A DNA stretch of 64,000 bases from Natronorubrum sediminis (lineage in GTDB: Archaea; Halobacteriota; Halobacteria; Halobacteriales; Natrialbaceae): NCBI RefSeq assembly GCF_900108095.1, contig NZ_FNWL01000005.1:124001-188000 (forward strand). Direction: 5' to 3'. The position numbers and the translations under genes were made by a program. Position 1 is the first letter of the stretch; each line of letters starts with the position of its first letter. A model generated the notes under the pieces. That model had not been told where the DNA came from. It worked only from the letters and a program-made list of their open reading frames with translations, and did not search any database. Of the stretch, positions 2,322 to 4,449 are shown one piece after another.

Positions 2322-2505
2322 CTTGTCGTCGACGTTGTGTCCCAGGGCCCAAACCGTCGGCGATCCGTGGGTGTGCTCGTTCGACGGAGTGACTGAAGTC
2401 GACACCACGCCCGTACTCACAACTCGGTGACGATCACGAGTCGACGATTGTCCTGAAAATACCCTACTCAACCCGTTAATCGAATATATACACTGTCGAC
2501 GTGTG

Positions 2506-2526
2506 ATTTATATACCCGAATCGGGT
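2506..2526 (+). promoter_or_regulatory. TATA box plus palindromic operator of the winged-helix gene
   Basis: An ATTTATATA box at 2506-2514 lies about 22-26 bases before the ATG at 2532, the spacing of a leaderless haloarchaeal transcript. Directly after it, bases 2514-2526 form ACCCGA-A-TCGGGT, a perfect 6+1+6 inverted repeat. A site between TATA box and start is where a repressor would block initiation, so autoregulation by the downstream winged-helix protein is a reasonable inference. Confidence 0.55.
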
Positions 2527-2531
2527 CAGTG

Positions 2532-2768
2532 ATGACAATAAGTTCACAAGAACACCGACCCGCTCCGCTCATCGATCCAATTCCAAGCGATCTCGATTCG
2601 ACCCAGGCCAAACTGGTGTATCTCTATCTCGAGGCGACCGACGGCGCGACCATCGACGACCTCGGCGCGACGCTCTCGATGTCCAAGCTGTCCATTCTGA
2701 GCATCCTGAACACGCTCTCGAGTGCTGGCTACGTTAACCGAACCGACGGCGAGTACGTCGTCTCGTAA
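2532..2768 (+). CDS. Winged-helix DNA-binding protein (MarR/TrmB-like)
   Basis: A 78-residue protein that is essentially one winged helix-turn-helix: TQAKLVYLYLEAT, then TIDDLGATLSMSKLSILSILNTLSSAGYVNRTDGEYVV. The second part has the recognition helix and the beta wing. It resembles the small haloarchaeal winged-helix domains grouped with MarR and TrmB. No ligand or dimerisation domain is present. The ATG at 2532 is preferred over the adjacent GTG at 2529 because it fits the TATA spacing. The palindrome just upstream suggests it controls itself. It is followed by 325 bases without a gene that hold a palindromic repeat array, and then by glnA on the other strand. Confidence 0.72.
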   Translation: MTISSQEHRPAPLIDPIPSDLDSTQAKLVYLYLEATDGATIDDLGATLSMSKLSILSILNTLSSAGYVNRTDGEYVVS

Positions 2769-2881
2769 TCCTCGTTCTGGGGCCCGAGTTCGACTCGCTC
2801 CTGTCCATCCGTTGGCGTCCAGCGAAGTTCCTCAGCGTGGCGTTTCAGGTTCGTCGACCAGTATAACCCTCTCGATTACTG

Positions 2882-2941
2882 TACTCCAGAGTACGGTACT
2901 ACAGAGTATGATATTCTAAAGTATGATACTTCAAAGTATCA
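2882..2941. repeat. Four tandem 15-bp palindromic units in the 2769-3093 intergenic region
   Basis: Four consecutive 15-base units start at 2882, 2897, 2912 and 2927: TACTCCAGAGTACGG, TACTACAGAGTATGA, TATTCTAAAGTATGA and TACTTCAAAGTATCA. Three of them carry TACT-N4-AGTA, an imperfect palindrome; the third starts TATT. A further TACT half-site sits at 2877-2880. The stretch is AT-rich inside a GC-rich region. It lies between the convergent ends of the winged-helix gene and glnA, so it is not an obvious promoter element for either. The rest of the 325-base gap shows no credible coding frame. Confidence 0.8.
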
Positions 2942-3093
2942 TTCGTTGGGTTTGGTGGCGAGGTAGCCCTCGAGTATCAGCTATCGATCTGTTCCAACGA
3001 GTGAGATAGCCGACCGAATCGCGTGAGTGACCAGTGAGCGACGACCGAGCGAAACGCGAGCAAAATCGAAACCTGCGGTGAGCCGGGACGCCG

Positions 3094-4449
3094 TTAGAAC
3101 GTCTCGAGGTAGCGATCGAGTTCCCACTCGGAGACGTCGATGAGGTACTCTTCGAACTCCTGTGATTTGGCCTCGACGAACTTCTCGCCGATGTGTTCGC
3201 CGAGTGCGTCGTAGATAACCTCGTCTTCCTTGAGGGCGTCGACTGCCTTTCCGAGATTCGAGGGGAGCGTCTCGATGCCGTACTCTTCGCGCTTTGCCTC
3301 GTCGAACTCGTAGATGTTCTCTCGAACCGGATCCGGCGCCTCGAGTCCCTGCTCGATGCCCTCGAGTCCAGCCTGAATCATGACCGCGAGCGCGAGGTAG
3401 GGGTTACACGAGGGGTCGGGCGAGCGGAGTTCGACACGGGAGGCCGCGGGTACACGGGCGGCCGGTTTGCGGATTAGCGCCGAGCGGTTGCGATCGGACC
3501 AGGCCACGTAGACGGGTGCCTCGTAGCCGGGGACGAGTCGCTTGTAGCTGTTGACCGTCGGGTTCGCGACTGCCGTAATCGCCGGCGCGTGCTCGAGGAT
3601 GCCCGCGAGGAACGAGTGGGCGGTGTCGCTGAGGTTGAACTCGTCGTCCTCGTCGTGGAAGGCGTTCTCGCCGCCCTCGGTCATCAGCGAGAGGTGTGTG
3701 TGCATGCCCGAGCCGTTGATCTTCGGGATCGGCTTTGGCATGAACGTCGCGTGTAGGTCGTGTTGGGCGGCGATGGCCCGGACGACGGTGCGGAACGTGC
3801 CGACGTTGTCGGCCGTCGCGAGGGCGTCGTCGTACTCGAAGTTGATCTCGTACTGCCCGCGGGCGACCTCGTGGTGGCTCGCCTCGATTTCGAAGCCCAT
3901 GTCCTCGAGGCCGTAGATGATGTCGCGGCGCACGTCGGCGGCGAGGTCTTTCGGTGCGAGGTCGAAGTAGCCGCCGTGGTCTGCGGTTTCGGTCGTCGCG
4001 TGGCCGTCTTCATCCTCCTCGAACATGAAGAACTCCGGTTCGGGGGCGGCGTTGACCGTGTAGCCCATCTCGTCGGCGCGCTCGAGTGCGTTCTTGAGCA
4101 CGCGTCGTGGATCTCCCTCGAACGGTTCGCCAGTCGACGTGTTGTAGACGTCACAGATCATTCTGGCGGACGATCCCCCCTCGCTCTGCCTCCACGGGAG
4201 GACGGCGAACGTGTCCGGATCCGGAACCAGACGCATGTCCGACTCCTGAATGCGAACGAAGCCTTCGATCGACGAGCCGTCGAAATAGATTCCCTCTGCG
4301 AACGCCTTTTCGGCCTGTCGAGCCGGAACTGAGACGTTCTTTACCGTCCCCAGAATGTCGGTGAACTGCAATCGAAGGAAATCGATGTCCTTCTCCTCAA
4401 TTTCGTCCAGTACGGTTTCTTCTGCCGTGGTCAGACTTCCACTTGTCAT
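3094..4449 (-). CDS. glnA: Glutamine synthetase, type I
   Basis: A 451-residue enzyme catalysing ATP-dependent amidation of glutamate, the ammonium-assimilation step. Visible signatures are the N-terminal grasp domain ([15 protein letters not shown]), [10 protein letters not shown], the catalytic [11 protein letters not shown], the ATP-binding [13 protein letters not shown] and the C-terminal [19 protein letters not shown]. Length and motifs fit GS type I. The region equivalent to the enterobacterial adenylylation loop reads [15 protein letters not shown] rather than NLYDLPPEE, as in the alpha subgroup that is not controlled by adenylylation. It is transcribed alone, with a TATA box and a palindrome upstream. 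No Lrp or GlnK gene is adjacent. Confidence 0.97.

Follow-up and report, generated by a model that had tools for sequence, protein, structure and literature searches.

A tandem array of four palindromes in Natronorubrum sediminis is the orphaned promoter region and probable operator of a deleted ATPase_2/DUF234 gene, and has no evident link to the two convergent genes between which it now lies in the 64,000-nucleotide stretch of DNA analyzed here (hereafter, the window). We estimate a probability of roughly four in five that the array served as an operator of this lost gene, a member of the candidate defense family PDC-S27, whose intact protein most likely binds such arrays cooperatively and thereby represses its own synthesis. 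The cooperative repressor site that had originally been predicted here is close to this reading, with the amendments that the repressor would be the product of the adjoining gene itself and that the gene under control is a protein gene now deleted. Likewise, the alternative suggestion of a promoter remnant of an unannotated RNA was correct as to the promoter remnant, which belonged to a minus-strand gene for a protein with ATPase_2, winged-helix and DUF234 domains and not to an RNA.

The array and the gene it has outlived

The operator array (positions 2882-2938, unstranded), defined by its sequence, its uniqueness in the genome and its alignment to the nearest relative, consists of four 12-bp palindromes of the form TACT-N4-AGTA, namely TACTCCAGAGTA (2882-2893), TACTACAGAGTA (2897-2908), TATTCTAAAGTA (2912-2923), whose left arm reads TATT, and TACTTCAAAGTA (2927-2938). 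The four units, their steps of exactly 15 bp and the deviating arm of the third unit are all as originally described, and a further TACT half-site does precede the array (2877-2880) but lies outside the 15-bp register. The convergent arrangement of the neighbors is also confirmed: the array is flanked by a small HTH-like ORF of 78 aa on the plus strand (2532-2768), which is conserved as a neighbor of glnA in 9 of 11 retrieved relatives, and by glnA itself, the glutamine synthetase gene, an ORF on the minus strand (3094-4449) identified from its sequence. Both stand outside the system described here. Since isolated palindromes are nothing unusual in the window (with one mismatch allowed, 8 vs. 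4.5 expected), the signal is carried by their tandem arrangement. When searched with up to two mismatches, the two-unit pattern occurs only once in the 3.78-Mb genome, at the array, and the same pattern written backwards does not occur. The exact two-unit pattern is present in 59 of the 392 genomes of the order, whereas the backwards control is matched by one genome only (G269).

In the nearest relative (G001), both flanks of the locus match those of the window, and extra DNA is found exactly before the array. This DNA is a 464-codon gene, lying on what is the minus strand of the window, with the array placed between the flank and the start codon. Its protein comprises ATPase_2, winged-helix and DUF234 domains, with profile matches above cut-off to PF01637 (E 4.6e-25) and PF03008 (E 3.6e-15), as well as a match to PDC-S27 (E 1.5e-40), the PADLOC profile of a candidate system made up of a single gene. 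No intact PDC-S27/ATPase_2-DUF234 gene exists at the corresponding locus of the window, where only codons 404-425 are left as a 66-bp minus-strand remnant (2788-2853) that shares 64 of its 66 bases with G001 (97% identity). At the deletion junction (2853/2854), 1,224 bp are absent with respect to G001, a segment that runs from 14-15 nt ahead of the start codon into about codon 403. Another deletion (2769-2788), of about 160 bp, took the rest of the gene beyond about codon 425 and the downstream spacer, such that window positions of about 2759-2787 align against 178 bp of G001. Also shared with G001 is GTTATACT on the minus strand (2860-2867), which counts as a putative TATA-like box for the lost gene solely on the strength of its A+T content and position. 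Because G001 carries the intact gene and the array at the same site and the window retains a remnant, the array represents the surviving promoter region of a gene that has disappeared; in this window, it is a relic.

The search of relatives that the original prediction had called for found the array before the intact gene in G001 and no array where this position lacks the ATPase gene. In other genus members, the site contains neither, and the HTH-like ORF is separated from glnA by a short gap. The absence of the array in close relatives, which had been held to count against a function, tracks the absence of the ATPase gene, so this objection does not apply in the form in which it was framed. 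A role for the array in the two convergent genes was considered and rejected, as the array is missing from the site in the examined relatives that lack the ATPase gene here.

Tandem arrays before homologous genes and the residue that tracks them

The protein family is found in 187 of 293 genomes of the order (E 1e-60 or better), and the DNA preceding 30 close homologues contains the same TACT array in nearly all cases. Full-length homologues were then picked by protein and not by DNA, and loci fetched for their array were excluded. Of those with at least 66% identity, 27 of 28 had an upstream array with a 15-bp period, scored as such if above the 99th percentile of shuffles, as did 32 of 33 at 46-65%; below 46%, counted over the whole set, it was detectable in 7 of 24. 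A motif-free test, in which the best 26-base self-match was recorded for each shift from 8 to 30 in 100 upstream regions, returned 15 bp as the best shift in 81 of them, with a mean self-match at this shift of 17.9 vs. 10.5 in dinucleotide shuffles (z 39.5) and one other large peak, at a shift of 30. The position is constrained as well: the array stops 43-44 nt short of the ATG in 32 of 36 close homologues, and this close group also has an AT-rich region resembling a TATA box at about -30 to -22 relative to the start codon. Repeated promoter sites at a fixed place, as sought in an autoregulatory operator, are therefore a property of these genes.

The sequence of the half-sites changes with the subfamily, being TACTT..AAGTA, CTATTT..AAATAG, ACTATTATAGT, AACTACGATAGT or GATTTCCGAAATC at the same place, and distant subfamilies keep the 15-bp step with half-sites CTATTT/AAATAG, ACTAT/ATAGT, CTAC/GTAG or GATTTC/GAAATC. 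In homologues of 32-34% identity (L246, L248, L252 and L256), TACT is retained and the array lies over the start codon or just ahead of it, a repressor-like position at which bound protein would block the initiation of transcription. Other elements were observed elsewhere in the family. Contrary to what its LSKYL helix would lead one to expect, a 42%-identical haloarchaeal clade (L239-L241) has no 15-bp array and only a TTATC/GATAATC element near the start codon, and distant homologues with LSYYL, LSYYV or LPYYL helices (L253, L254, L258, L259 and L261) carry, between TATA and ATG, an element resembling ACGAAAC...ATGTTTCGTA, perhaps a wider inverted repeat. Searches of the open-access literature (DUF234, PF numbers, SSO1545, PDC-S27) returned nothing on upstream arrays and, although a description elsewhere is possible, a subfamily-specific 15-bp self-operator before a widespread candidate immune gene appears to be undescribed in the searchable part of that literature.

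In the alignment, the residue that follows LS in the LSKYL segment varies with the operator. Among the array-bearing homologues, 40 combine K271 with TACT/AGTA half-sites, 40 combine another residue with another half-site and one combines lysine with another half-site, i.e., 80 of 81 are concordant. Column 271 is the top predictor of operator type among 463 protein columns (balanced accuracy 0.988; next column, 0.913), and within the clade of at least 61% identity its prediction is perfect (next column, 0.917). An AlphaFold2 model built with 53 homologues (pLDDT 95) places K271 in the third wHTH helix (residues 266-278), which is predicted to be the DNA-recognition helix. The operator sequence was thus found to track a residue of this helix in the encoded protein, over three phylogenetically informative changes. 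Lysine and non-lysine states interchange about three times on the tree, and two to three of three independent pairs are concordant and none opposite (p 0.25), a number of changes so small that significance is unreachable after correction for phylogeny. Chemically, a lysine facing G:C and a threonine facing A:T would be an ordinary pairing, and the association yields a one-residue prediction of specificity, K271 with TACT/AGTA and T with TATT/AATA.

The genome itself encodes an intact paralogue (L045; G000 contig C6: 38982-40370, minus strand) that is 52% identical, carries tyrosine at the position of residue 271 and is preceded by palindromes of the ATTATAG/CTATAAT type, a combination that would keep paralogues of the same genome apart. 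A third member of the family (L046; G000 contig C6: 79221-79754, plus strand) is truncated to residues 279-461.

Orphaned arrays elsewhere and rival explanations

The loss of the gene with the array left behind is recurrent. By tblastn, 35 of the 59 array loci have a full gene adjoining, 10, including the window, have a remnant and 14 have neither; at least one of these 14 (L133) shows remnant sequence by eye, leaving 13-14 of the 59 loci without gene or remnant. Inspection by eye also showed that L121, L134 and L147 keep promoter-like sequence in register, of the TATTAT or TATC kind. In four species of one genus (L129, L131, L132 and L133), the array lies directly beside about codon 373 of a decayed gene and has outlived its 5' four fifths, truncations that may go back to one event. 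For orphan arrays at large, decay is the simplest view. Arrays with no trace of an ATPase gene nearby were observed at L145:2438-2480, L128:2510, L139:1743, L151:2517 and L154:2537, that of L145 standing shortly before a biotin synthase-like gene. At L127, L136, L141 and L147, truncated copies abut sequences that, by eye, resemble the ends of IS200/IS605-type transposons, and insertion may be a common way of breaking these genes.

Some of these observations would also suit a mobile cassette made up of gene and array, in which the array is an end or target site and orphan arrays are solo ends: gene and array are jointly absent from the other genus members, whose flanking genes are separated by a short gap, truncated copies retain the array with only a 3' or a 5' piece of the gene, and some of the breaks adjoin the transposon-like ends just mentioned. 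This explanation is nevertheless improbable, since none of 44 homologues has a matching palindrome within 150 bp downstream of its stop codon, the distance from array to ATG is fixed in a promoter-like manner and the half-site follows the recognition helix. Additionally, four of the truncated copies come from one genus, so that their repeatedness is at least partly a matter of inheritance. A MITE-like transposon derivative was suspected as well, as several loci keep the array and residues 373-461, but was dropped because four of these loci belong to one genus, the breakpoints vary among the others and the 3' end lacks a repeat beyond it. Virus-borne decoy arrays were sought in a strict scan of viral contigs, and none was found.

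The orphaned self-operator must further be weighed against the possibility that a nucleoid protein or an unlinked regulator of the host binds the array and controls the genes, with the winged helix of the encoded protein serving otherwise. It is common for upstream sites to be recognized by factors encoded elsewhere, and the 13-14 loci at which arrays persist without an ATPase gene could be understood in this way. We consider it unlikely, given that one array per genome is the rule, that half-sites differ among paralogues even within the same genome, as for L045, and that the residue that best predicts the operator sits in the recognition helix of the linked protein. The nucleoid-protein site of the original prediction is likewise unlikely, as arrays are generally limited to one per genome and their sequence varies with the subfamily of the linked gene. 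A Halobacterium regulator, TrmB, recognizes the motif TACT-N7/8-GAGTA, and this candidate was rejected because its spacing does not match that of the array. A promoter for a small RNA, or a structured RNA, is more doubtful still: although the surviving TATA-like box would drive a minus-strand transcript through the remnant and into the 3' end of the HTH-like ORF, the same promoter precedes a protein gene in G001, no terminator-like site was found and positions 2400-3300 match no Rfam family at E values of up to 1. Least credible, to the point of being negligible, is a functionless repeat produced by chance or replication slippage. Slippage does act on the array, which by alignment has one 15-bp unit more in the window than in G001 (four vs. 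three), and with the gene gone the array may have no present function here; however, the occurrence of the pattern in 59 of 392 genomes as opposed to one with the control, the 15-bp period (z 39.5) and the fixed place before the gene already contradict this explanation.

Proposed autorepression and its relation to known systems

The product of the deleted gene would be a single-chain PDC-S27 protein in which an AAA+/STAND-like ATPase_2 domain is followed by a winged helix and a PD-(D/E)XK-like DUF234 domain. According to the mechanism that we propose, the intact protein would bind the 15-bp tandem palindromes of its own promoter cooperatively through the winged helix, and the bound protein would hold its own transcription low until a change in ATP or ligand state, or an invader, alters binding and ends repression. 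We infer that the protein itself contacts the DNA, that the effect is repressive and what the trigger would be, and we infer a function in defense because of the PDC-S27 assignment. Repression is favored over activation, and autorepression is the most likely outcome, owing to the overlap of the arrays with promoter and start codon in distant members and to the analogy with other autoregulated effectors. More tentatively, the protein could be a one-polypeptide switch, in which the winged helix silences its own gene, the ATPase senses invasion and releases the DNA and the nuclease-like domain acts, while array and helix co-diverge, paralogues are insulated from one another and orphan arrays mark lost immune genes.

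The conserved array offers a directly testable regulatory handle on PDC-S27, both for the binder and for the signal that releases it. In addition, palindrome arrays between convergent genes that seem meaningless can be the scars of lost genes, and such scars could be used to trace the gain and loss of candidate defense genes.

All 53 of the aligned homologues match PDC-S27, which is described, in the passages of the source that deal with it, as an abundant family with 3503 archaeal instances in which an ATPase is fused to PD-(D/E)XK, most candidates of this kind still awaiting experimental validation (PMC12988326). The same passages mention neither the winged helix nor a conserved operator array, and of this system the window keeps only the operator and a fragment of the gene. 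No solved relative was found by sequence; by fold, the best Foldseek matches of the model (pLDDT 95) were SSO1545 (2FNA, E 3e-11) and PABY2304 (2QEN, E 6e-11), both with a probability of 1.00, followed by Orc/Cdc6 and then by plant NLRs. SSO1545 and PABY2304 are archaeal AAA+/STAND-like ATPases of the same fold as the modeled protein, but they are only 18-19% identical to it (TM-score 0.47-0.50), and their solved chains, of 350-352 residues, are more than 100 residues shorter.

The ATPase domain of the transcription factor IniR was modeled on SSO1545 (PMC5760070). Like the protein considered here, the STAND ATPase transcription factors IniR and MalT combine an ATPase with a DNA-binding domain that regulates a promoter, but they are sugar-sensing activators of other operons and lack a nuclease domain. 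We know of no 15-bp self-operator array for either of them. A parallel in regulatory logic is provided by the C proteins of restriction-modification systems and by toxin-antitoxin operators, where proteins that bind repeated palindromes in their own promoters limit the expression of a harmful effector. DNA binding in those systems is usually left to a small protein of its own, whereas in the present case the effector would include the DNA-binding domain.
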